The notes under the pieces were generated by a model. It was not told the DNA's origin, did not search any database, and worked only from the letters and a program-made list of their open reading frames with translations. From Spirochaetales bacterium (lineage in GTDB: Bacteria > Spirochaetota > Spirochaetia > Sphaerochaetales > Sphaerochaetaceae), in contig JALEVV010000013.1 in the NCBI GenBank assembly GCA_022788185.1, positions 1 through 46,512 of the forward strand: 46,512 nt of DNA, read 5' to 3'. Positions 14,489 to 26,062 of this stretch are shown one piece after another (position 1 is the stretch's first letter; each line of letters starts with the position of its first letter). The position numbers and the translations under genes were made by a program.

Positions 14489-15576
14489 GTGGCAGTTACT
14501 GTTACCGTGACTGTATCGGAATAGGTTCCTGCAACGGCGTTCAGGAGCCTTGATACATCCTGAAAGTCAAATACGACTTTGATTATGCCGTATCCGCCTG
14601 TCGTGAGTTCTGACAGGTGATATGTGTCCAGGTTCTTATCAATGGTGAGACCGGACGCTGTGCCCTTTGATGTTTTCATGGTATAGGGAATTCCGGCTCT
14701 TCCCGCTGAATCGGAGAGGATTCCATCGGATGAGAGGGTGACATCGAATTCCTGGGAGAAGCTCATTACACGCTCTGAAAAATCACTGTTGCTGACAGTG
14801 ATTTTTATGTCCGTGACGGCAACATTTCCGGGTGATGAAAGAATTGTATCGTAATTCAGATTCCTTGTTCCGTCGTTTATTTCGATGTCGGTACCAGGCT
14901 CAAGGAACACGGCAGTAAGTCTGGGAGTAACAGACTCGGTCATGGCACCCGGTTCGGTACTGACTCCGGGGACATTCACATTGCCCCCGCTTAGCTGCGG
15001 AGTATTGTTCACGTTTGTAATCGGTGTGTTTTTAATATTATTAGTTACGTTAGTTCCATCTACCGTAAGGCTGAATTTCGTGGATCCGATATTATATATG
15101 GTTATCGTGGGTAAAGTTTTATCGGTAAGGTAGTAGTTCCCGCTAAGAACACCGTTATATGCAAGATACAGTTTCAGGTAGATCGGGGTGAAATGATTTT
15201 TATAGACCGGAAGGGAAAGTCCCGTGGTGGGATACACACCTGAATGACTGATTGAATCATCGGAATTCCCTCCGTTCCAAGTATAATACAGATGGAATTT
15301 TTCCTCTCTCACTGCATCACTGCCAGGGAATATTCCTCTGAAAGAAACATCAAACTGGGAGCTGTTTGATAACGTGAGATCGAATTCCGCATTATTGTTC
15401 TGTATTACCGTAAATGTACCGATAAGAAAACCATACCATCCGTTATTGTCCGGTATTCTTTCAATGATCATCTGGTCTGCGCTGTTCTGCCGGTAGCTGA
15501 TCTGTGTTGCTGCGGCATTCAGGATTGTCAACGACATTAATGAAAGCAGTAATGTTCCAATGATTTTCTTACTCAT
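14482..15576 (-). CDS. Exported beta-rich protein with two repeated domains, function unknown
   Basis: This 364-residue protein has a clear signal peptide (MSKKIIGTLLLSLMSLTILNA). The mature part looks like two beta-sandwich domains joined by an Asn/Thr/Pro-rich linker (about residues 178-205). Each domain ends in a similar strand: GNYYLTDKTLPTITI in the first and GTYSDTVTVTVTA at the C-terminus. The last motif resembles the ends of secreted spore-coat-U/pilin-type domains, but I cannot assign a family. There is no ribosome site. An extended -10 box ends 6 bases before the ATG, which predicts a leaderless mRNA. Confidence 0.75.
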   Translation of the reverse strand: MSKKIIGTLLLSLMSLTILNAAATQISYRQNSADQMIIERIPDNNGWYGFLIGTFTVIQNNNAEFDLTLSNSSQFDVSFRGIFPGSDAVREEKFHLYYTWNGGNSDDSISHSGVYPTTGLSLPVYKNHFTPIYLKLYLAYNGVLSGNYYLTDKTLPTITIYNIGSTKFSLTVDGTNVTNNIKNTPITNVNNTPQLSGGNVNVPGVSTEPGAMTESVTPRLTAVFLEPGTDIEINDGTRNLNYDTILSSPGNVAVTDIKITVSNSDFSERVMSFSQEFDVTLSSDGILSDSAGRAGIPYTMKTSKGTASGLTIDKNLDTYHLSELTTGGYGIIKVVFDFQDVSRLLNAVAGTYSDTVTVTVTATQ

Positions 15577-15582
15577 GACACA

Positions 15583-15591
15583 AGCATATCA
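15583..15591 (-). promoter_or_regulatory. Extended -10 promoter directly before the 15576 ATG
   Basis: On the minus strand TGA-TATGCT (TGN plus -10 hexamer) ends 6 bases before the ATG, so transcription should start at or next to the start codon. No convincing -35 box is present; that region is a T-run belonging to the tRNA terminator. Confidence 0.4.
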
Positions 15592-15602
15592 GATATGGGA
15601 AA

Positions 15603-15631
15603 TAAAAAAAAGTCAGGATAGAATCCTGACT
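15603..15631 (-). terminator. Terminator of tRNA-Val
   Basis: On the minus strand AGTCAGGAT pairs with ATCCTGACT around a TCT loop (15611-15631), followed by a T-run at 15603-15610. It begins 6 bases after the tRNA. Confidence 0.88.
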
Positions 15632-15636
15632 GGTAG

Positions 15637-15708
15637 TGGAGGATATAAGGATTGAACTTATGACATCCTGCTTGTAAGGCAGGCGCTCTCCCGCTGAGCT
15701 AATCCTCC
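15637..15708 (-). tRNA. tRNA-Val (anticodon TAC)
   Basis: The minus strand folds as a full cloverleaf. The acceptor stem is GGAGGAT/ATCCTCC, the D arm GCTC...GAGC, and the anticodon stem CCTGC/GCAGG with loop CTTACAA (anticodon TAC). The T arm is ATAAG/CTTAT with TTCAATC. The discriminator base is A. The CCA end is not encoded (CTA follows), so it must be added by tRNA nucleotidyltransferase. Confidence 0.96.
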
Positions 15709-15734
15709 GATTCATCTGTTCAACAGACTTGGAT

Positions 15735-15763
15735 TTTATACCAGTTTCGAGAGAAATAATCAA
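15735..15763 (-). promoter_or_regulatory. Promoter of tRNA-Val
   Basis: On the minus strand TTGATT (15758-15763) and TATAAA (15735-15740) are spaced by 17 bases, giving a start about 20 bases before the tRNA. Confidence 0.6.
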
Positions 15764-15893
15764 GTGAGTTGGGAAGAAAATTTGTCATTATTATTGAATA
15801 TTCAGGATAACATAATGTACTGACAGGAATTAGACATGTAAATAATCCTTGACACAATGGATTATTTTGTACAGATTTGATTCAGAGGCTAAT

Positions 15894-16706
15894 ATGTGGA
15901 CACTTGATACTTTTATCATATCTTTTTTCATCTACAGTTTCATCGGCTGGTGCTGCGAGGTCGTATACTGCTCGGTTCCGAAGAAGAGATTCGTGAACAG
16001 GGGCTTTCTGTTCGGACCGTACCTTCCCATCTATGGTTCGGGCGCAATGGTCGTGCTAACATTGCTCAGACCGTTTCATGACAGATGGTACCTGGTATTC
16101 ATCTTCGGTGTCATTTCAACAAGTATCATTGAGTATGTCACATCATGGGCGCTTGAGAAGATCTTCAAGGTAAAACTCTGGGACTACTCTAACCATCCGA
16201 TAAACATAAACGGAAGGGTGTGCGAGCTCAACTCAACTCTCTTCGGCCTGCTGTCCCTCTTCCTTGTATACGTTGCCGATAAGCCAGTGAGCGCATGGGT
16301 TGCGAAGATTTCCGATTTCTGGCTTGAACCGCTTGCAATGCTCATAGTTGCGGTTCTCTCAGCAGACTTTGCCACATCCGTTGTCAAGATGAGTGCCTTC
16401 AGGAAGGCAGTTGATGACTTCAACAGGATCAGGAATGAGTATGAGGCCAGGATCAGGGCAATGGTCAGTGAAAACCAGGAGAACGTGGCCTTCATCAGGG
16501 AGCGCTTTGCCCATGAGCTTGAGGCTGTACGCAACAGGTCCTACAGGAACACAAGACGTATCTTCAACTCCAACCCGACCCTTACTGCCCGCGCTGACAT
16601 GAAGCAGAACCTGCAGAACGTCAGGAAGAGCATAGAGGAAAGAACACAGAAGCTTAAGGAACTAAAGCTTCAGAGAAAGGCGGAAAAGCATGGTAAATCT
16701 GAATGA
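15894..16706 (+). CDS. PF06541-family membrane protein (putative CmpB/YmcB-like)
   Basis: About five hydrophobic segments fill the first 170 residues, with the family hallmarks FIGWCCEVVYCSVPKKRFVNRG near the start, FGPYLPIYGSGA, and later an EYVTSWALEKIF stretch. The last 90 residues are a charged, probably coiled-coil cytoplasmic tail. The family is often labelled a putative ABC permease, but its function is not established. I use the ATG at 15894 with AGAGG 5 bases upstream (270 residues), not the TTG at 15849. That TTG is part of a TTGACA that may be the -35 box. The next gene overlaps the end by 17 bases. Confidence 0.85.
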   Translation: MWTLDTFIISFFIYSFIGWCCEVVYCSVPKKRFVNRGFLFGPYLPIYGSGAMVVLTLLRPFHDRWYLVFIFGVISTSIIEYVTSWALEKIFKVKLWDYSNHPININGRVCELNSTLFGLLSLFLVYVADKPVSAWVAKISDFWLEPLAMLIVAVLSADFATSVVKMSAFRKAVDDFNRIRNEYEARIRAMVSENQENVAFIRERFAHELEAVRNRSYRNTRRIFNSNPTLTARADMKQNLQNVRKSIEERTQKLKELKLQRKAEKHGKSE

Positions 16707-17361
16707 TGTCAGAGATGAAATAAAGGAATATGCCCCTTCGGTGGAGCTTATGGCGGTCAGCAAGACCCATCCCTATGAGGCGGTACTGGAGTGTTATGAC
16801 CTCGGTCAGCGCCTATTCGGGGAAAACAGGGTACAGGAAGTGGCTGAGAAGTTCCCTCCGAAGGCAGAGCGGCCGGAAGGAATGTATGTGGCCCTCATAG
16901 GGCACCTTCAGTCCAATAAGGTCAGGAAGGTCCTTCCCCTTGTGGACAGGATCGACAGCGTCGACTCCATTGCCCTTATGGATAAGCTTGAAAGGGAGCT
17001 TTCCGGGAATGACAGGGTCCTTGACATCCTTTTTGAGGTCAATGCGTCCGGTGAGGCGCAGAAGAGCGGGTTTGAAAGTGACGATGCGCTTTTTGAGGCA
17101 GTAAAACATCTTCCTGAGGTTCCCCATCTTAATCTCAGGGGCCTCATGACGGTAGGTCCCCTGGGAAACGACAGGGATGCAAACATCAGATGTTTTTCCC
17201 ATGTGAGACAGCTCTATGATAAAATAAGGGATGAATATGGCATCAGCCTCGACATTCTCTCGATGGGCATGAGCGGCGACTGGAAGGAAGCCTGTGACTG
17301 CGGTTCCACTGAGGTCAGGATCGGGACCGCCATATTCGGGAAACGGAGTTACGATGTTTAA
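16690..17361 (+). CDS. YggS-family pyridoxal-phosphate homeostasis protein
   Basis: A PLP-binding, alanine-racemase-fold protein of the YggS/PROSC family that balances PLP and amino-acid/keto-acid levels; no enzymatic reaction is established. The PLP lysine is Lys25 in AVSKTHP. The other signatures are LFGENRVQE, IGHLQSNK, VNASGEAQKSGF, GLMTVGP and the phosphate-binding SMGMSGD followed by RIGTAIFG. The length of 223 residues is typical. It overlaps both neighbours, by 17 bases upstream and 8 bases downstream. Confidence 0.96.
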   Translation: MVNLNDVRDEIKEYAPSVELMAVSKTHPYEAVLECYDLGQRLFGENRVQEVAEKFPPKAERPEGMYVALIGHLQSNKVRKVLPLVDRIDSVDSIALMDKLERELSGNDRVLDILFEVNASGEAQKSGFESDDALFEAVKHLPEVPHLNLRGLMTVGPLGNDRDANIRCFSHVRQLYDKIRDEYGISLDILSMGMSGDWKEACDCGSTEVRIGTAIFGKRSYDV

Positions 17362-17683
17362 AAGACTCATCCTGATGATACTGATCGCTGCCATTGCGCT
17401 ATCCCCCCTTACCGCCGAGGCGGAGCTCTCCTATGAACCATATGGTGAAAAGGAGTTCCCGATCTGGACGATGCAGCTGAGAAGGGCTGAGTCCATCTTC
17501 TTCGGCTCCCTGGTTCTCACGCTTCCCATCACATCCCTGGTCTGGTCCCTCTGTGAAAACGGAGGCCTGATTCCGAAAATTGAGGACCCGATGAAGAGGT
17601 TCTTTGCCCAGGCAGGAGCCGCCTCCCTGATCTCAGTGGGGATTTCCACTGCTGACTGGATAATAGGTGAGGTACAGTCTTGA
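17354..17683 (+). CDS. Small exported or membrane protein of unknown function
   Basis: The start is the ATG at 17354, with CGGAG 5 bases upstream and overlapping the yggS end. It gives 109 residues beginning with a signal peptide-like stretch (MFKRLILMILIAAIALS, cleavage plausible after TAEA). A second hydrophobic segment lies near residues 52-65 and a third near 88-105, so it may stay in the inner membrane. I recognise no family. It is locked between yggS and the pseudouridine synthase, whose TTG start overlaps its stop by 4 bases. Confidence 0.75.
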   Translation: MFKRLILMILIAAIALSPLTAEAELSYEPYGEKEFPIWTMQLRRAESIFFGSLVLTLPITSLVWSLCENGGLIPKIEDPMKRFFAQAGAASLISVGISTADWIIGEVQS

Positions 17684-18594
17684 GGGAGGAAAAGAGCGTA
17701 AGCTTCATCAGTCAGACATCAGGACGTGTCGACAGGGCATCGGATGATGTTCCGAGAAGTGTTTTTTCCCTTCCCGAGACGGTAATTACCGTAAATGGCC
17801 GCACTGTGAAGAAAAGCCAGAAGGTGAGGGAAGGGGACAGTGTTACCGTTACCTGGACAGAGGAGGTCTTTGCCGGACTTGAGGCCGAGGACATACAGCT
17901 TAAGGTAATCTATGAGGATGATGCCATCCTCGTCATAGACAAGCCATCGGGCATGAACGTTCATCCCGGGGCCGGGTGTCCGGGCGGTACGGTCGCCAAC
18001 GCCCTGCTTTTCCGCTATGGCGATGATTTCCAGACCCAGGACGATGAGGAAGGGGAACTACGTCCCGGTATCGTCCACCGACTGGACAAGGATACCAGCG
18101 GGGTGCTCATCACTGCCAAGACAAGGGAAGCCCATACGGCGCTTGCCAGGCAGTTTGCCGCCCATACCAACGAAAAGGTATATATAGCCATATGTAAGGG
18201 ATTATTTGAGCGGAAGCGGGGCACGATTGACAGAAACATCGTCCGAAATGAGAAAAACCGTAAGACCTTCACTGTGACCGATTCGGCTGACAGGGGAAAG
18301 AGTGCCGTTACCCACTACACGGTTCTGAGGCAGTTTGAAGGCTATGCCTTCGTCCGGATCAGGATAGAGACGGGACGGACCCATCAGATCAGGGTGCACA
18401 TGCAGAGCATCGGTCACCCCGTACTGGGCGACCCGATCTACTCGAGAAAGGATGAGAGGTTCGACATACCACTGGCGCTGCATGCGGCAATGCTTACAAT
18501 AGATCATCCTGTAACCGGTGAGAGGATGACCTTCAGGGCAAAGCTTCCTGAAAGGATCAGGGATACGGTACTGAGACTCAGCGGAAAAAGGTAA
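17680..18594 (+). CDS. RluD-family 23S rRNA pseudouridine synthase
   Basis: Isomerises uridines in rRNA to pseudouridine. The N-terminus is an S4-type RNA-binding domain (about 16-57, with VNGRTVKKSQKVREGD) that looks a few residues shorter than usual. The catalytic domain has DKPSGMNVHP and HRLDKDTSG with catalytic Asp136, and later GRTHQIRVHM. The length of 304 residues fits RluD/RluC. The start is a TTG with GAGG 7 bases upstream, overlapping the preceding stop as TTGA; no ATG would preserve the S4 domain. Which uridines are modified cannot be told. Confidence 0.93.
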   Translation: MREEKSVSFISQTSGRVDRASDDVPRSVFSLPETVITVNGRTVKKSQKVREGDSVTVTWTEEVFAGLEAEDIQLKVIYEDDAILVIDKPSGMNVHPGAGCPGGTVANALLFRYGDDFQTQDDEEGELRPGIVHRLDKDTSGVLITAKTREAHTALARQFAAHTNEKVYIAICKGLFERKRGTIDRNIVRNEKNRKTFTVTDSADRGKSAVTHYTVLRQFEGYAFVRIRIETGRTHQIRVHMQSIGHPVLGDPIYSRKDERFDIPLALHAAMLTIDHPVTGERMTFRAKLPERIRDTVLRLSGKR

Positions 18595-19126
18595 AACGCT
18601 TTTCCAGGGCGATGGTGGAAGCAGGTCCGTGTCCCGGATAGATGCATGTCTCATCGGGAAGGCTCATAATCTTTTCCTCTATCCCGAGACGGAGATCCTT
18701 CTCATGTCTCAGCGTGCGGCCTGCTCCGGGTTTCACGTCACCTGCAAAGACGTTATCCCCGATCAGGTAAACTAGACTGTCCGGTGAGTGCCCCGGGATG
18801 TGGAGCACTCTTACGGAAAGAGTTCCGCACATTGCCCGTTCCTGTCCTGCAAGAGATACCGTCTGCACGCCCCTGACGGAAGAAAGATAAGAAAACACCT
18901 TCACACTGTAAATCCTCTGCAGCTTCAGCAGACCTGAGACATGATGCTCATGGGCATGGGTGAGGAAAACGCCCTGAAGCCTGTACTTCCCATCTTCGAT
19001 AAAATCGATCATGGCCATGTCCACGTCGGTGCAGTCGATCAGAATGGCATCACGGCTCTCCTCATCGGTAACTATGTAGTTGTTGGTTATTCCGAATGAC
19101 TGGAAGAAGGGATTGACGGTAATCAT
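18578..19126 (-). CDS. Metallo-beta-lactamase-fold hydrolase (glyoxalase II-like) with a substituted metal ligand
   Basis: A 182-residue MBL-fold protein like small glyoxalase-II-type hydrolases. The metal-site residues are His57, His59, His62, His113, Asp130 and His166. The usual THxHxDH motif is here THAHEHH, so the Asp ligand of the second metal is replaced by His61. The rest (IPGHSPDSLVYL, FAGDVKPG, YPGHGP) is conventional. The start overlaps the pentapeptide gene by 4 bases. The 3' end overlaps the convergent synthase gene by 17 bases. The substrate is unknown. Confidence 0.88.
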   Translation of the reverse strand: MITVNPFFQSFGITNNYIVTDEESRDAILIDCTDVDMAMIDFIEDGKYRLQGVFLTHAHEHHVSGLLKLQRIYSVKVFSYLSSVRGVQTVSLAGQERAMCGTLSVRVLHIPGHSPDSLVYLIGDNVFAGDVKPGAGRTLRHEKDLRLGIEEKIMSLPDETCIYPGHGPASTIALEKRFTFFR

Positions 19127-19560
19127 CTTCCATCCCCGTCAAAAAAAGCTTCATCCGGATCTGAGTACCTGAATGAGATCGCAGTAAGATCTGATTTCCT
19201 GAAGTCGGTGCGCTTCAGCAGGCAGTCCTCAAAGAGTGTGTTTCTTATCCGGCAATTTGTGAAGTCCGAAAAGAAGATCTGGCATGCGGAAAAGTCCGAA
19301 TCGGTTATTTCCGATCCCCTGAAATTGGAAATCAGCAGTGAAGAGCCCGTAAACGAGCACCCTTTCATGACGGAAGAGGCAAGCACTGAATATCTCATTT
19401 CGCAATCGAGGAAGGTGCAGTTTTCAAAAGTGCACGATATGAAGTGGGCATCGGAAATCAGGGCCCTGTCAAAGGAGCACTCTCTGAAAATGCCGTTCTT
19501 CATTCTTTCGTGGGAAAAATCCCTGGAAGTGTAATCCTGCCTTAAGAACACGCTCTGCAT
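19123..19560 (-). CDS. Pentapeptide-repeat protein
   Basis: The chain of 145 residues is built almost wholly of five-residue repeats with a central Phe/Leu, for example CSFDR, ALISD, AHFIS, CTFEN, CTFLD and SDFSA, SDFTN, TDFRK. This predicts a right-handed quadrilateral beta-helix. Some members mimic DNA and protect gyrase, but most have no known role. No ribosome site is visible. A consensus-like promoter places the transcription start at the A of the ATG. It is co-transcribed with the MBL hydrolase. Confidence 0.9.
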   Translation of the reverse strand: MQSVFLRQDYTSRDFSHERMKNGIFRECSFDRALISDAHFISCTFENCTFLDCEMRYSVLASSVMKGCSFTGSSLLISNFRGSEITDSDFSACQIFFSDFTNCRIRNTLFEDCLLKRTDFRKSDLTAISFRYSDPDEAFFDGDGR

Positions 19561-19566
19561 GATGCG

Positions 19567-19618
19567 ACTTTATTATCTTTCCCATGTGTTGTCAACTTCA
19601 GCCCTAACGGGTTAAAAT
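19567..19618. promoter_or_regulatory. Back-to-back divergent promoters with overlapping -35 boxes
   Basis: For the minus-strand pentapeptide gene: TTGACA (19590-19595), 17 bases, TAAAGT (19567-19572), then 6 bases to the ATG. For plus-strand rsgA: TTGTCA (19589-19594), 18 bases, TAAAAT (19613-19618), then 8 bases to the ATG. The two -35 boxes occupy the same 7 bases on opposite strands. Neither gene has a ribosome site, which suggests leaderless transcripts. Confidence 0.55.
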
Positions 19619-19626
19619 CACCACAT

Positions 19627-20559
19627 ATGACTGGCAGTATCAGAAGGGCGATAAATAATCTATACACGGTTTTCTCCGAGGACGGCAGGATTTACAGCTG
19701 CAGGATAAAGGGCAAGAAGCTGCCCCTGGAGGAGTATGAGTACAACCCGCTCGCGGTTGGGGATAACGTGGAGTTCACGCCATACAGTGAAAACGAAGGA
19801 CTCATAACGAGGAGGCTTGAGCGCAGGAGCGTCTTCAGACGGTGGAACATCAAGCTGGAAAAGAATCAGACAATTGCGGCCAACATGGATCAGGTTGCAA
19901 TCGTGACCAGTGCCGACTGTCCTCCCTTCAGACCACGTTTCCTTGACAGGGCACTGGCGTGTTCATCGGGGTGTGAGCGGATAATCGTCATGAATAAGTG
20001 CGACTATGACATCACCGAGTTCGAGTTTGAACGCTGGGGACTCTATCACAGGCTGGGGTACAGGATCATTGCGGTAAGCGCCGCAACCGGTGAGAACATT
20101 GAGGAGCTTAAGGAAATGCTCCGGGGTAAGACCACTGCATTCGTGGGCCAGTCCGGTGTGGGAAAGTCCACGCTTGTGAATCTTATCACCGAGCCGGAGG
20201 TGCTTCAGGCTACCTGTGAGATCTCTGAAAAGTATCAGAGGGGAAGGCATACCACGAACCATGCGCTCTGGCTGGAAAAGGATGATATCAGGATTATTGA
20301 CACTCCGGGAGTCAGGGAGCTGCTTGTTCCCCTTGAGGATTATTCCCTCCTTTCGGCTTCATTCCCCGAATTCGCACGCTTTGAGTGTGCCTTCAGCGGT
20401 TGTACCCACACCGATGAACCCGACTGCGGCGTCAGGGAGGCAGTGGAGGAGGAAGAAATCGACTTTGACCGATATGAGTCATACCTTCACATGTATGAGA
20501 GCCTGAAGGAGCGCTCTCCCCAGTGGGCCAGAACGAAGTTCAGGAAGAATAAACAATGA
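19627..20559 (+). CDS. rsgA: Ribosome small-subunit biogenesis GTPase RsgA
   Basis: A circularly permuted GTPase that checks 30S maturation. An OB-like N-terminal domain (about 1-75) precedes the permuted motifs: G4 NKCD at 123-126, P-loop GQSGVGKS at 174-181, G2-region RHTTNH at 207-212 and DTPG at 225-228. The C-terminal zinc knuckle uses Cys254, Cys259, His261 and Cys267. The length of 310 residues is normal. The stop overlaps mutS2 by 4 bases. There is no Shine-Dalgarno before the ATG, and the -10 box lies 8 bases upstream. Confidence 0.97.
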   Translation: MTGSIRRAINNLYTVFSEDGRIYSCRIKGKKLPLEEYEYNPLAVGDNVEFTPYSENEGLITRRLERRSVFRRWNIKLEKNQTIAANMDQVAIVTSADCPPFRPRFLDRALACSSGCERIIVMNKCDYDITEFEFERWGLYHRLGYRIIAVSAATGENIEELKEMLRGKTTAFVGQSGVGKSTLVNLITEPEVLQATCEISEKYQRGRHTTNHALWLEKDDIRIIDTPGVRELLVPLEDYSLLSASFPEFARFECAFSGCTHTDEPDCGVREAVEEEEIDFDRYESYLHMYESLKERSPQWARTKFRKNKQ

Positions 20560-22832
20560 ACGACAATACCATACGTGATCTTGAAATAGATGAAATACTC
20601 TCCCTTATCGCCCACTGTTCGGTTTCCGACAGCGGCAGGAAGAGGATAAATCCCTCTGCCTTCACGGATGATGAGGCAGTAATCTCATCAAGGGCAGACA
20701 GGATAGGCGAGATAATAAACACAGTAGCGGAAAAAGGTTACTTCAGCTCTTACTTCGTTTCCCTGGAGAGTCTTTTCTCATTTACCGGCTCAGCATGTTA
20801 TCAGGGGAAGGATATTTATGCCTGCGGATCTTTCCTTCAGGCACTTAAGCACCTTGAGTCCTACCTGGATAAGGTAATGATGGACACTGAGCTGGGAAAA
20901 CTTGCAAAGGACATTCTGGAAGCCGTAGATGAAGCAGGGCTCGTGAAGGAAACCCACCCGCTTCTGTATCCTCTCTACAGAAAGGCTGAGGAAGTCAGAC
21001 AGAAACGTCAGATTTACTCCCAGAGTTTTCTCTCTGAGCATCAGGATGCGGCTCAGAACCTCAATGCGGTGTACAGGAACGAAAGGGTCGTTCTCCCGAT
21101 CAGAAGGGAAAAAAGGGGAGAAGTGAGCGGTTACATTCAGGGTGCCTCCCAGTCTGGAGGAACGCTCTACATCGAGCCTTTTGAGCTTGTCGATCTCAAT
21201 AACCAGGTCACACTGGCCGAGGATGAGATAAACAGGATGAAGCACCAGATCCTGCTGGAGCTTTCCGAGAGGATAAGATCGAGAATACCTACCATTAAGA
21301 AAGCCGATGAACGTGTTGCAGATTTCGACTTTCACTATGCGGCCGCACTCTTCATCATAAAATCTTCTTCAAAAAGGATTTCTTCCGGGCCTTCAATATC
21401 CCTGATAAATGCAAGGCACCCGCTGCTTGGAAAGAGGGCGGTTCCCATAACGCTTTCACTTGCGGAGGGAATAAGGGCGGTGGTCCTTTCCGGTGCCAAC
21501 GCAGGCGGTAAGACCGTCTCCATGAAGACTGCCGCAGTGGCGGTCTTCCTCAGGCAGCTCACCGGGTATGCACCGTGCGATGAGGCATCGGTTCTTCCCA
21601 CCTTCTCTGCCATATACACCGATATCGGTGACGGTCAGTCGATCAGCGACAGCTTCTCCACCTTCAGCCATCACATGGCCAATGTGGCAGCCATTACCTC
21701 GGCATCCGACGAAAGAAGCCTCATCCTTCTTGATGAGCTTGGAAGCGGAACCGATCCCGAGGAGGGAGCGGCGCTCACCATCGCCCTGCTTGATTACCTC
21801 TCAGCCAGGGGTGCGACCGTCTTCACCACATCCCACTACGGGGTTGTAAAGATGCATGCCTGGTCCAGTGAAGTGATGATGAATGCCAGCATGGAGTTTG
21901 ACGAGAGATCGGAAAAGCCCACTTACCGGATCATCTCCGGTCTTCCAGGGGAAAGCCACGCAATAGAAACCGCAAAGCGTATGGGCCTTCCGAAGGCCGT
22001 CATCTCAGCTGCCAGGGATAACATCGGAAAGGGCGCCAATGTCACGAAGCTCATGAACGAGCTTGCAGGCAGGAACAGGGCCCTTGACCGGAAGATCACC
22101 CAGCTGGAGCTGGAAAAAAGGGCGCTGGCCGCCAGGGAGAAGGAAGCTGAGAGGAAGGCGGAAGAATATGATGAACTCACAAGGCGCCTTCAGAAGGAGG
22201 GTGCCGGTGATATCAGTGCCTTCCTCAGTGAGTCCAGGAAAGAGCTTGAAAAACTCGTTCACGATGTTTCCACGGGAAAGCTGACTAAGGAAAAGACAAA
22301 AAACGTGAAGGCATTCCTGCAGAAGGTCTCAGAAAAATCAGATGAGGCTGATAGGGAGAAGCAGCGCCTTGAACAGGAGGAAATCGAGAGAATCGACATC
22401 TCTTACAGTGTCGGTGACGACGTATACTGCGGCTCCTACGACAGACGCGGCGTCATTCTGAGGGATGAGGGAAAGGGCAGGTATCTTGTGTCCGTGGGAG
22501 CCATGAAGATGACGCTCACCAAAAAGGACCTGAAGCCGGCGCCACGGGAGGAATTCAAAGCCTCCTCCACCTACAGGATATCGGCAGTCAGGCCCCATGC
22601 CGTGCTGGATGTAAGGGGCAAGACACTGAAGGAGACGCTGGAAATCCTCGATACCCAGATAGAAGGGTGTCTTGTGCACTCCCTCTCATCCTTTGCCATA
22701 ATCCACGGCTACGGGGACGGAATTCTTTCCCGAGGCATTCATGACTATCTGAAAAAACAGAAGGATGTGAAGGATTACCGTTTCGCCGCCCCGGAGGACG
22801 GCGGAATGGGAAAGACTTACGTTTTCTTCTGA
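20556..22832 (+). CDS. mutS2: MutS2 endonuclease / ribosome-splitting ATPase
   Basis: A MutS-family ATPase without the mismatch-recognition domain. It is known to suppress homologous recombination in some bacteria and to rescue collided ribosomes in others (RqcU). Walker A GANAGGKT lies near residue 313 and Walker B LILLDELGSGTDPEE near 389. A coiled-coil region follows (about 500-620) and a C-terminal Smr domain from about 685, with LDVRGKTLKE and the catalytic HGYGDG. The length of 758 residues is typical. It is translationally coupled to rsgA by an ATGA overlap. Confidence 0.96.
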   Translation: MNDNTIRDLEIDEILSLIAHCSVSDSGRKRINPSAFTDDEAVISSRADRIGEIINTVAEKGYFSSYFVSLESLFSFTGSACYQGKDIYACGSFLQALKHLESYLDKVMMDTELGKLAKDILEAVDEAGLVKETHPLLYPLYRKAEEVRQKRQIYSQSFLSEHQDAAQNLNAVYRNERVVLPIRREKRGEVSGYIQGASQSGGTLYIEPFELVDLNNQVTLAEDEINRMKHQILLELSERIRSRIPTIKKADERVADFDFHYAAALFIIKSSSKRISSGPSISLINARHPLLGKRAVPITLSLAEGIRAVVLSGANAGGKTVSMKTAAVAVFLRQLTGYAPCDEASVLPTFSAIYTDIGDGQSISDSFSTFSHHMANVAAITSASDERSLILLDELGSGTDPEEGAALTIALLDYLSARGATVFTTSHYGVVKMHAWSSEVMMNASMEFDERSEKPTYRIISGLPGESHAIETAKRMGLPKAVISAARDNIGKGANVTKLMNELAGRNRALDRKITQLELEKRALAAREKEAERKAEEYDELTRRLQKEGAGDISAFLSESRKELEKLVHDVSTGKLTKEKTKNVKAFLQKVSEKSDEADREKQRLEQEEIERIDISYSVGDDVYCGSYDRRGVILRDEGKGRYLVSVGAMKMTLTKKDLKPAPREEFKASSTYRISAVRPHAVLDVRGKTLKETLEILDTQIEGCLVHSLSSFAIIHGYGDGILSRGIHDYLKKQKDVKDYRFAAPEDGGMGKTYVFF

Positions 22833-23683
22833 GGAAGCTGGGCCAGAAGCACGGCGGCAAAGACTATCGCACAGCCTGCAAGCTCCTTTGCACTGAGTTT
22901 GTCGGAGAGGATGAGCCAGGCGGCAAGTACGCTGAAGACGCTTTCAAGGGAGAGCACGAGAGTCGCCACCGTCGGGTGGATGTACTTCTGTGCAACCACC
23001 TGAAGGGTGTATGCAATGCCGCAGGAGAAAACGCCCGCATAGAGGACCGGAACGGCTGCCTTCATTATTTGGCTGATGCTGATCGTCTCTGTTAAAATGG
23101 CACCTATAAGGCATATGATGCCGCTTGTGAAGAACTGAAGGCATGAGAGCGTGATCCCGTCCACATCGGTGAATCGGTCAATGACAATGATGTGGATGGC
23201 GAAGAAAATGGCACAGATCAGAAGGTAGAGGTCTCCCTTTTCGATCCTGAAGGTGTCTCCGATGCAGAGCAGGTACATGCCTGCAATGGCGATAAGGGCA
23301 TAGAGGAAGATCTTCCTGTTTACCTTTCTTCCCATAAGAAGAAGGATAATGGGCACGAAGATGTTGTAAAGGGATGTGATGAAGCCTCCCTTTCCGGCAC
23401 CTGAGTACTGGACTCCGATCTGCTGGACGACGGAGGCAACTGCCAGTGCTGTTCCGCAGGCGGCACCTGCCAGGACTGTCCTCTTATCATCCTTTGCGCT
23501 TATCTTTCTTCCCTTACGGTTTTTCATGACGAAGGGAACAAGAACCAGTGAGCCTATGAAGAAGCGGGTGAAGTTGAAGGTGAAGGGTCCGAGGAAATCA
23601 CTTGAGACATCCTGGGCGACAAACGAACAGCCCCAGATCAGGGCTGTCAGCAGCAGAAGAAGAGTTGCGGTTTTTCTGTTCAT
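22817..23683 (-). CDS. EamA/DMT-family transporter
   Basis: A 288-residue drug/metabolite transporter with ten hydrophobic segments in two EamA repeats. The first begins LLLLLTALIWGCSFVAQD and the second LYLLICAIFFAIHIIVIDRF. The substrate cannot be told; relatives export amino acids or other metabolites. I use the ATG at 23683, which overlaps the acetyltransferase stop as ATGA, rather than the upstream GTG. No ribosome site is seen, which agrees with translational coupling. The 3' end overlaps mutS2 by 16 bases. Confidence 0.9.
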   Translation of the reverse strand: MNRKTATLLLLLTALIWGCSFVAQDVSSDFLGPFTFNFTRFFIGSLVLVPFVMKNRKGRKISAKDDKRTVLAGAACGTALAVASVVQQIGVQYSGAGKGGFITSLYNIFVPIILLLMGRKVNRKIFLYALIAIAGMYLLCIGDTFRIEKGDLYLLICAIFFAIHIIVIDRFTDVDGITLSCLQFFTSGIICLIGAILTETISISQIMKAAVPVLYAGVFSCGIAYTLQVVAQKYIHPTVATLVLSLESVFSVLAAWLILSDKLSAKELAGCAIVFAAVLLAQLPQKKT

Positions 23684-24234
23684 GAATGTGGAATATACCA
23701 CTGTCGGCGGAAAAAATCATCCTTACTCATGATGTATATGATGAGATCAATCTCCCTTCCATCAGGTGAGAGACCGAAGTGGGGGATGTGTCCGGTTTGC
23801 GTGAAGCCAAGTCTTTCTATCACCTTCCTGCTGTCATCGTTGAAGGAAAAGTGCTCGACGCTGATGTATTCGAGCTGAAGCTCCTCAAAGCCGAAGCGCA
23901 TCAGAGTGACGGCGGCTTCATGCATGTACCCCTGATGGCGGTAGGACGATCCAAGGTAATATCCCAGTGCCATCACCCTGTCATTTTTGCGAAGCGTATC
24001 CCGGTGAAGGGATATGTTTCCGATTATCTTCCCGTCACACTTTCTCTCGATCGCAAAGGCCTTTTCATCGGGATTCCCAGTGAGAATCTTCCTTATAACG
24101 TTAAGGGACTCATCTTCGTTCTGATGAACCGCCCATCCGCATGGAGGACCCACCAGGGGATCCTTCGCGATCTCAAAGAGGGCAGGGGCATCATCATCCG
24201 TCCAAGATCTTAAAACAAGTCTTTCACTTTCCAT
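23680..24234 (-). CDS. GNAT-family N-acetyltransferase (RimJ/RimL-like)
   Basis: Transfers an acetyl group from acetyl-CoA, in this subgroup often to protein N-termini or small amines. The 184 residues start with the typical SERLVLRSWTDDDA and continue with IGNISLHRD. The acetyl-CoA loop region is LGSSYRHQGYMHEA, and the C-terminal conserved piece is FNDDSRKVIERLGF. It is the first gene of a two-gene transcript with the EamA transporter, a pairing that would fit modification and export of a metabolite, though that is speculative. Its promoter overlaps that of the divergent aconitase X operon. Confidence 0.9.
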   Translation of the reverse strand: MESERLVLRSWTDDDAPALFEIAKDPLVGPPCGWAVHQNEDESLNVIRKILTGNPDEKAFAIERKCDGKIIGNISLHRDTLRKNDRVMALGYYLGSSYRHQGYMHEAAVTLMRFGFEELQLEYISVEHFSFNDDSRKVIERLGFTQTGHIPHFGLSPDGREIDLIIYIMSKDDFFRRQWYIPHS

Positions 24235-24262
24235 TTCATCATAATATTCCTCTGTGTCTCTA

Positions 24263-24330
24263 TGGACAATATCAGTATTGGATATATAATGTAATTATCT
24301 TTTCTGACATTTTTCACTGAATTGTCAGAA
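24263..24330. promoter_or_regulatory. Divergent promoters and inverted repeat before aconitase X
   Basis: On plus, TGGACA (24263-24268), 16 bases, TATAAT (24285-24290) precede the aconitase X operon. On minus, TTACAT (24289-24294), 17 bases, TATTGT (24266-24271) precede the acetyltransferase gene. The two promoters occupy the same 30 bases. An 8-base inverted repeat TTCTGACA/TGTCAGAA (24302-24309 and 24323-24330) lies just after the plus-strand start, as a candidate operator or leader hairpin. Confidence 0.5.
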
Positions 24331-24350
24331 GACGAGATAGGAGAGACAAT

Positions 24351-25619
24351 ATGCAGCTCACAGCCAGACAGCAGGCCATTTATGATGGCCGTGAAGGTGA
24401 AGTCAAGGCAAAGATAATGAAGACTCTTGTCATGTACGGTGAGACCTTCGGCTCGGATCGCATGGCGGACATCACCGGTGAGTACGGTCACCTGGTGACC
24501 AGCTTCGGATTATCGGTAATGAAGCCTGTCTATGCACTCATGGATGAGATCATCGCCTCGGGAGCCGTTTCCGGTCAGAAGTTCACCGTTGACCCGAAGC
24601 CCCTTGATCCCAAAGTGCCCAAGAATCTGATCCAGGAGATCTTCTTCAGGGTAATGTATTCCAAGCAGAAGGATTACGATGAACAGCTAAGGAAGCTCGG
24701 CATCATCAGTGATGACGGCTACACCTGTACCTGTTACATGAATGAGGTCGGTAACGTCCCCAAAAAGGGTGATATCCTCTCATGGGCGGAAAGCTCAGCA
24801 GTCGTTTACGCAAACAGCATCCTCGGTGCCAGATGCAACAGAAACAGCGGAATCTTCGATCTCTTCGGCTCGATAGTGGGCTGTGTTCCTTACTTCGGCC
24901 TTCTGACCGATGAGGGAAGAAAGGCTGACTGGCTTGTCGAGGTAAGGACCACCCATAAGCCTGAAGCCCAGCTGCTCGGCTCCGCAATAGGCATGAAGGT
25001 CATGGAGGACGTTCCCTTCGTCACAGGACTGGATAAGTGGTTCCCGTCCCTTGACGATGATGCCAAAGCCTATTTCAAGGACTTCGGTGCGGCAACGGCA
25101 AGTAACGGTGCTGTAGGACTTTACCATATTGAGAACCTCACGCCGGAAGCTGTTGAAAGCGGCAGGTCCCTGCTGAAGAGCGGATATAAGACATATGTGA
25201 TTGATGACGCGGAACTTGAGAGGGTTGAGAAGAACTACCCCGTGATCTGGAAGGATCCTGCGGCGGAACCTAAGCTTGCCTTCATCGGATGTCCTCATCT
25301 TTCTGCTGCACAGCTCAGAAGCTGGGCCGTGAACATCAGCACAGAGCTCAAGAAGAACGGAAAGAAGAAGGTTGCCGTTCCCACGGTCATGACAGCGGCT
25401 CCCGCCGTCGTGAAGGAATTTTCCTCAGACCCTCTTTACTCTGTGCTTGAGAATGCAGGAGTGGTCATTTCCTCAATCTGTCCCCTCATGTACATGAACA
25501 ACCCTCAGTGCGGAAAGATGCCGGTCCTCACATGTTCCAACAAGTTAAGGACATACACGAGTGCGAAGTACATGAAGGAAGCAGCGCTGCTTGAGGTCAT
25601 CACGGGAGGTGCAAAATGA
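24351..25619 (+). CDS. Aconitase X large (catalytic) subunit
   Basis: An Fe-S dehydratase of the AcnX/DUF521 family. Characterised bacterial members dehydrate cis-3-hydroxy-L-proline, and archaeal two-subunit members dehydrate mevalonate 5-phosphate. Family blocks are clear: EVGNVPKKGDILSWAESSA (about 131-150), VYANSILGAR (152-161) and IGCPHLS (about 306). From memory the first Fe-S block is usually T-C-T-P-Y; here it is TCTCY, with Cys126 and Cys128. The GART of the family is GARC (Cys162). The C-terminal half has further cysteines in ISSICP and NPQCGKMPVLTC. The start has AGGAGA upstream and the stop overlaps the small-subunit gene by 4 bases. The substrate is not known. Confidence 0.9.
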   Translation: MQLTARQQAIYDGREGEVKAKIMKTLVMYGETFGSDRMADITGEYGHLVTSFGLSVMKPVYALMDEIIASGAVSGQKFTVDPKPLDPKVPKNLIQEIFFRVMYSKQKDYDEQLRKLGIISDDGYTCTCYMNEVGNVPKKGDILSWAESSAVVYANSILGARCNRNSGIFDLFGSIVGCVPYFGLLTDEGRKADWLVEVRTTHKPEAQLLGSAIGMKVMEDVPFVTGLDKWFPSLDDDAKAYFKDFGAATASNGAVGLYHIENLTPEAVESGRSLLKSGYKTYVIDDAELERVEKNYPVIWKDPAAEPKLAFIGCPHLSAAQLRSWAVNISTELKKNGKKKVAVPTVMTAAPAVVKEFSSDPLYSVLENAGVVISSICPLMYMNNPQCGKMPVLTCSNKLRTYTSAKYMKEAALLEVITGGAK

Positions 25620-26062
25620 AGAAGACTTTCACTGGAAGGGTAGTGGTAAAGGGCGAGTGTAAGGCTGAGGCCCTTGTCAGCCACGGTGGTTTCAACACTC
25701 TGGCATCTTATCAGCACTCGCTGATGTTCGGTGACAAAACGGCCAAGTGCTCAGACCAGAACAACCCCGATCTCTATGGCAGGGCAATGGCGGGCAAGGC
25801 CCTCTGCATGCCCCAGACGATCGGATCAACGACCGGAGGCCTCGTTCTCTTCTGTGCGGCCAGCATGGAGCGTCAGGCGGCATGTCTCCTGTTTTCCAAG
25901 CCTATCGACTCCCTTGCGGCGGCAGGTGCGATCCTAGCGGATGTCTGGACCGAACACTCAATGCCTACCGTTGACAGCCTGGGCGACGAGTTCCTCTCCT
26001 TCGTTCAGAGCGGTGACACGATCACAGTGAGCAGTGACGGAAAGGTTACTGTCGAGAGGTAG
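25616..26062 (+). CDS. Aconitase X small (swivel) subunit
   Basis: The DUF126/swivelling domain partner of aconitase X, 148 residues. VSHGGFN at 21-27 and the active-site loop IGSTTGG at 69-75 (conserved Ser71) are visible, as is MAGKALCMP. In other bacteria the two domains may be fused; here they are separate genes with a 4-base overlap, so a heterodimer is expected. An inverted-repeat terminator lies 8 bases behind the stop. Confidence 0.9.
   Translation: MKKTFTGRVVVKGECKAEALVSHGGFNTLASYQHSLMFGDKTAKCSDQNNPDLYGRAMAGKALCMPQTIGSTTGGLVLFCAASMERQAACLLFSKPIDSLAAAGAILADVWTEHSMPTVDSLGDEFLSFVQSGDTITVSSDGKVTVER

Follow-up and report, generated by a model that had tools for sequence, protein, structure and literature searches.

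The locus studied here lies within the window, the whole stretch of 46,512 nucleotides that was analysed, which is contig 71 of a source genome of 2.27 Mb in 90 contigs. Two pairs of genes point away from each other across a short gap. On the plus strand, rsgA (19627..20559) encodes a small-subunit biogenesis GTPase of 310 aa and is followed by mutS2 (20556..22832), the second cistron, whose start overlaps the rsgA stop as ATGA. On the minus strand, a gene for a pentapeptide-repeat protein of 145 aa (19123..19560) is followed by one for an MBL-fold hydrolase-like protein (18578..19126), with a 4-base overlap at the pentapeptide stop. Both first cistrons are apparently leaderless, and the leader of rsgA would be 0–2 nt long. 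Domain and equivalog models agreed with the names that the original prediction, made from the sequence of the window, had given to rsgA, the pentapeptide gene, and the MBL gene; for RsgA the matches were PF03193 at 7.7e-44 and TIGR00157 at 194.5 bits, against a cut-off of 100. A first search, for phage with the locus, gave no matches.

The pentapeptide protein of the window is a short form, without about 55 N-terminal residues of five aligned relatives. It thus lacks their N-terminal Cys/His part, and it sits on a long branch (1.69), while its gene retains the 6-base spacing between -10 box and ATG despite the short form. Identity as a gyrase-protecting protein of the Qnr or MfpA type was considered and rejected, with scores of 47.3 bits against a Qnr cut-off of 240 and 32.6 bits against an MfpA cut-off of 360. 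Gyrase protection was also set aside on structural grounds, since a model of one relative (mean pLDDT 91) matched pentapeptide folds only generically.

The ATG codons of the pentapeptide gene (19560, minus) and rsgA (19627, plus) are separated by 66 bases. On the plus strand, a -35 box TTGTCA (19589-19594) is followed after a spacer of 18 by the rsgA -10 box TAAAAT (19613-19618) and, 8 bases further on, by the rsgA start. On the minus strand, TTGACA (19595-19590) is followed after a spacer of 17 by the pentapeptide -10 box TAAAGT (19572-19567), which ends 6 bases before that gene's ATG. The two -35 hexamers have 5 bases in common and jointly cover the 7 bases TTGTCAA (19589-19595, both strands), with the -10 boxes 40 bases apart on either side. 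Because the reverse complement of TTGTCAA is TTGACAA, this one element can serve as the -35 for both strands. Each promoter matches the consensus at 10 of 12 bases on its strand, and the pair are two of the three best among 23 sites found in a scan of positions 15000-26000, for which shuffles expect 9.0. When the gap was shuffled by dinucleotides, both promoters with leaderless spacing and overlapping -35 boxes were reproduced in 2 of 60,000 sequences, while a plus promoter was reproduced in 186 and a minus promoter in 220 of the same shuffles. The sequence, the scan, and the shuffles thus place the promoter-like sites on both strands where they had been predicted, and the -35 boxes described as common do overlap, by 5 bases within the heptamer.

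We saw by eye no purine-rich Shine-Dalgarno (SD) motif before either ATG in the window sequence, as had been claimed. Both genes have a -10 box 5–8 bases before the start codon and, by eye, no SD, the features by which we recognise a leaderless gene. The missing SD is no independent proof of leaderless translation, because the -10 box occupies the place where the SD would stand.

Conservation of the gap in the genus and family

rsgA was present in all 16 genomes of the genus, and in each of them a TAnnnT hexamer ends 6–10 bases before the chosen rsgA start (ATG or GTG). A divergent pentapeptide gene was in reach at 12 of these 16 loci, and the -35 boxes overlapped in 12/12. The upstream sequence of L006 is cut by a contig end. 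Three further loci (L002, L003, and L004) have no pentapeptide match, and a search of their genomes (G001, G006, and G004, respectively) gave no match to the gene either (E up to 1e-8). L002 and L003 carry TTGAAT and TTGACT in place of TTGTCA, while L004 retains TTGTCAA. The original prediction had named as evidence against itself an upstream start codon that is conserved and accompanied by a ribosome site; by eye, none was seen in the genus upstream sequences.

We then took in the family, where 74 of the 81 genomes searched had an rsgA match (the 7 without one gave no locus). Upstream DNA was obtained for 75 loci (16 from the genus, 19 + 40 others), and 73 were tabulated, with L041 and L126 left out because a contig end cuts their upstream DNA. 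A divergent pentapeptide N-terminus lies upstream of rsgA in 46 of the 73. The distance from the -10 box to the pentapeptide ATG was 6 bases in 38 of these 46 loci, 5 bases in four, and 7, 8, 9, and 11 bases once each. It thus fell at 5–8 bases in 44/46; in L009 and L011 the best-scored promoter stood at 11 and 9 bases, respectively. The distance to the rsgA start was 6–10 bases in 34/46 and 15–32 bases in 12/46. Our scorer takes the best promoter 3–40 bases upstream of a start, and in shuffled upstream DNA it placed this promoter at 5–8 bases in 4.2 of 46 loci (maximum 8), compared with 44 for the real pentapeptide genes and 31 for rsgA, the latter being somewhat favoured because promoter score was one of the criteria for picking the rsgA start from as many as three in-frame candidates.

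The -35 boxes overlap by at least 4 bases in 34 of the 46 family loci and are separate in 12; both sides are leaderless-like in 22 loci with the overlap and in 10 without it. Among the 34 overlapping loci, the shared heptamer is TTGTCAA in 27, GTGTCAA in two, CTGTCAA in one, TTGTTAA in two, and ATTGCAC in two. In an ungapped alignment of these loci (33 distinct), the shared box reached 1.2–2.0 bits per column versus at most 0.9 in other columns, a contrast that is partly built in, as the scorer's choice of minus -35 served as the anchor of every row. Elsewhere in the gap, the same alignment had no comparably strong block that might represent an operator.

On a tree of the pentapeptide protein and partial RsgA protein (46 rows, midpoint root), the -35 overlap was found on both sides of the root, and its state needs four changes. 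In one clade of eight loci (genera g2, g15, g17, and g21), the -35 boxes are separate, 9–17 bases apart, and read TTTACA (at one locus, TTTACT) and TTGCAC. The gaps in this clade are 78–87 bases long, and both -10 boxes are still 5–8 bases from the starts, so the leaderless spacing outlives the -35 overlap. A different departure was observed in genus g3, where the rsgA -10 box lies 15–23 bases before the ATG in 9 of 11 loci and a GGAG string can be seen by eye between them. These nine loci have gaps of 70–79 bases and retain the -35 overlap, and their rsgA looks to be leadered from the same promoter.

The pentapeptide gene and its divergent partners across the class

Across the class, 144 of the 198 genomes sampled have a relative of the pentapeptide protein (E up to 1e-15). 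The relatives are about 200 aa long, with an N-terminal Cys/His stretch followed by a pentapeptide coil. We chose 40 of their upstream regions, from 25 other families, out of 127 matches outside the family; the choice was made by N-terminal match (query residue 1–6) and spread, before the upstream DNA was viewed, and the set includes some near-copies. TAnnnT ends 5–8 bases before the ATG in 36 of these 40 genes (shuffles 4.5, maximum 9), and the best promoter falls there in 34 (shuffles 4.0, maximum 8), while an SD 4-mer is present in two. As a control, recA was sought together with rsgA in 30 of the 40 genomes and read in 25, five being dropped because the motif was not found. None of the 25 recA genes has TAnnnT at 5–8 bases (shuffles 2.2), 18 have an SD, and the best promoter falls at 5–8 bases in three; recA, murI, and rsgA starts outside the genus were chosen automatically, and several of the recA starts look internal. 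One gene therefore keeps a leaderless-like start in 36/40 class genomes, against 0/25 for recA, which mostly has an SD. Taken with the family counts (44/46 for the pentapeptide gene and 34/46 for rsgA), this comparison supports the predicted leaderless starts at both genes. Judged by these upstream sequences, the start of the pentapeptide gene has probably been kept leaderless-like for some reason in most of the sampled class genomes. Why some genes stay leaderless is a long-standing question, which now becomes testable on one spirochaete protein.

rsgA behaves differently outside the family: among the 27 of 30 loci read (L276-L278, one fragment and two paralogues, were left out), TAnnnT stands at 5–8 bases in four and an SD in nine. 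The leaderless-like start of rsgA is a trait of loci with the two genes face to face, at present or in the past. The same-strand ORF right before rsgA reads by eye as a glutamate racemase (murI) in 18 of these 27 class loci, and the two that were tested scored above the TIGR00067 cut-off. Conversely, a divergent murI match was found within the available stretch in 23 of the 40 class pentapeptide loci, across a gap of 196–500 bases in 19 and of 62–109 bases in four. In G162 (family f25), the pentapeptide/murI gap is 62 bases long with one shared -35 box, the promoters read TTGACA-16-TACTCT-6-ATG and TTGTCA-17-TACTAT-6-ATG, and rsgA lies directly behind murI (L273). In families f3 and f4, rsgA directly faces the pentapeptide gene, as in the window's family, and has TTGTCA with a spacer of 17; its -10 box is 7 (L249), 8 (L251), or 9 bases (L250) from the ATG. 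The box is also shared in f17 (L271), where the rsgA -10 box is 27 bases from the start, while rsgA in f20 (L257) uses a different -35.

Since the G162 design serves murI with rsgA behind it, rsgA may have inherited its promoter. The likely history, drawn from few lineages, would be that the pentapeptide promoter came first, that the near-symmetric TTGTCAA allowed a divergent gene to share the -35, and that rsgA inherited it after the loss of murI; independent origins are possible. Such a history would offer a simple route to promoter gain, in which a gene loses its upstream neighbour.

Leaderless-like gene heads in the source genome and its relatives

To set the locus against its genome, 340 kb of the source genome (the window and 20 other stretches) was passed through a simple gene caller, which gave 296 genes, 166 of them with at least 30 bases upstream. 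Of these 166 gene heads, 29 have a TAnnnT that ends 6, 7, or 8 bases ahead of the start, versus about 8 expected (2.6 per nearby position), so that the leaderless-like excess amounts to ~12% of the heads. SD motifs accompany a further rise at 19–26 bases. An SD was found in 0 of the 29 leaderless-like heads versus 29/53 in the comparison, with the -10 hexamer occupying the SD place. TAnnnT at 6–8 bases was observed in 17/105 heads from genus relatives versus ~7.5, and in 6/83 from two other family genomes versus ~3.6. The fuller motif TTGACA-N16-18-TAnnnT-N6-8-ATG had 133 matches in the 16 genus genomes and 39 in a backward control, with 72 for N13-15 and 103 for N24-26. Whole-promoter scoring of the 166 source-genome heads gave 30 versus 20 in shuffles (maximum 30). 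A leaderless gene class in the source genome is likely on these counts, and its size is rough.

The signal and its spacing are the same as those described for leaderless bacterial genes in the available text of Zheng et al. 2011 (PMC3160421), which places TAnnnT some 12 bases upstream of the start and names Spirochaetes among its groups. That survey, as far as its text was available, counts genes per genome, whereas here a single gene is leaderless-like in 36/40 genomes from 25 families. In Leptospira interrogans, a spirochaete of another class, about 440 mRNAs are reported with a leader of less than 10 nt in the portion of PMC5243855 consulted; the 5' ends there are experimental, whereas ours are predicted from sequence. 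No 5'-end map came up in the literature searched on leaderless genes with Sphaerochaeta or Treponema denticola.

A probable two-way promoter and its competing explanations

We consider it very probable that the 66-base gap is a minimal bidirectional promoter with a shared -35 and two leaderless first cistrons. The gap would act as a promoter of the sigma-70 type, with each -10 box on its own side at 17–18 bases from the shared element. Transcripts would start at the start codons or within ~2 bases of them, so that the pentapeptide protein and RsgA would be translated from leaderless mRNAs, while the MBL protein and MutS2, whose genes overlap the first cistrons, would be translated by coupling. 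Polymerase could occupy the gap in only one orientation at a time, which would probably amount to light competition and not to a switch. The leaderless pentapeptide start would be the old, constrained part, and the near-symmetric box would let the opposite direction share the -35. On that opposite side the promoter would drive murI in at least one lineage, and rsgA once murI is no longer in between, presumably by inheritance.

Promoter-like strings could also have arisen in the gap by chance, in which case the real promoters or starts would lie at other positions. Consensus scans do give many sites (23 in 11 kb) and -35 overlap is not enriched elsewhere, but the two successes in 60,000 gap shuffles and the conservation in family and class, with recA as a control, make this highly improbable. 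It is more conceivable, if on balance still somewhat doubtful, that the overlap is kept only by compactness: leaderless genes would shrink the gap to ~62–69 bases and the boxes would coincide, which is compatible with a bidirectional promoter. The 22 overlap loci that are leaderless-like on both sides indeed have gaps of 62–69 bases, and the eight-locus clade, leaderless-like on both sides with gaps of 78–87, has separate boxes. However, the nine g3 loci retain the overlap at gaps of 70–79, and T is found in 29 of the 34 overlapping loci at the one base that only the plus hexamer reads (the first of TTGTCAA), in rows anchored on the minus hexamer.

The original prediction had made the two operons mutually exclusive at initiation. 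The geometric part stands, as one -35 box cannot seat two polymerases. The regulatory part, in which the overlap would be a working switch with rsgA/mutS2 and pentapeptide/MBL expressed alternately, appears quite unlikely. Such a switch would fit a single -35 box serving both directions, 10/12 consensus matches on both strands, and an overlap kept in all 12 genus loci with a divergent pair in reach; yet 12 of the 46 family loci lack the overlap, 10 of these 12 remain leaderless-like on both sides, and the tree needs four changes between overlap and its absence. In the available text of PMC12825309, five natural E. coli bidirectional promoters likewise showed no competition at basal activity, being too weak, and strengthening one side lowered the other in all but one. 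Some competition is possible in the gap, because both of its promoters match the consensus at 10 of 12 bases.

A bolder extension of the bidirectional promoter would make it a ribosome-state sensor, with the ~200 aa pentapeptide protein held by selection to leaderless translation regardless of its neighbouring gene, and with rsgA, which encodes a 30S assembly factor, captured by the same promoter; we regard this as unlikely. Leaderless messages are readable by 70S or incompletely matured ribosomes. Because of this, production of both proteins would continue during a failure of 30S maturation, in which Shine-Dalgarno-led messages starve.

The gap resembles the E. coli and other prokaryotic bidirectional promoters of Warman and Grainger in that a near-symmetric element works both ways and polymerases are sterically exclusive. 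Those promoters share a -10, with starts mostly 18 bp apart and 10 and 23 also common, according to the portions consulted of PMC12825309 and PMC10268837, whereas here the -35 is shared, the predicted starts are ~65 bp apart, and the messages would be leaderless. By its sequence the gap would work like a bidirectional promoter, as one core element, TTGTCAA, can be read in both directions; it is no strict member in the Warman sense, which has a shared -10 and starts 18 bp apart. A shared -35 in place of a shared -10 would be a second geometry for two-way promoters. The Pc/Pr promoters of pLS20 are also divergent and overlapping, with polymerase binding only one at a time, as the geometry would allow here (PMC4207663, text available in part). 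In the reading favoured there, -10 and -35 boxes coincide in position and the switch is driven by a regulator, in contrast to the shared -35 of the gap. We found no account of this locus in the literature searched on leaderless genes with Sphaerochaeta, Treponema denticola, or divergent or bidirectional promoters, nor in that on RsgA with leaderless messages, including PMC5101352.

Overlapping -35 boxes are no habit of these genomes, because the stretches sampled have 56 divergent pairs, and such boxes occur in 2 of them versus 1.24 in shuffles, which is no enrichment; the caller missed the true pentapeptide start in this count, so the pair studied here did not register as leaderless on both sides. 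The window contains another divergent pair whose -35 boxes overlap, at 24235-24350. Its GNAT acetyltransferase gene (minus) has the leaderless-like TTGTCC-17-TATTAT-6-ATG, and its aconitase X gene (plus) has TGGACA-16-TATAAT about 60 bases before the ATG; overlaps of this type are about as numerous as expected by chance. At L061 2780-2843 (G000:C15), a sensor kinase gene and a YcxB-like gene diverge across a 64-base gap, with TAnnnT 6–7 bases before both ATGs and weak overlapping -35 boxes, TTGAAC/TGTTCA. Finally, at L127 (G000:C51), TTGACA precedes a conserved string that includes TAAAGTGGAATCATG, and only a 30-codon ORF follows; slightly varied, the string recurs a single time in each of 12 of the 16 genus genomes (by eye).
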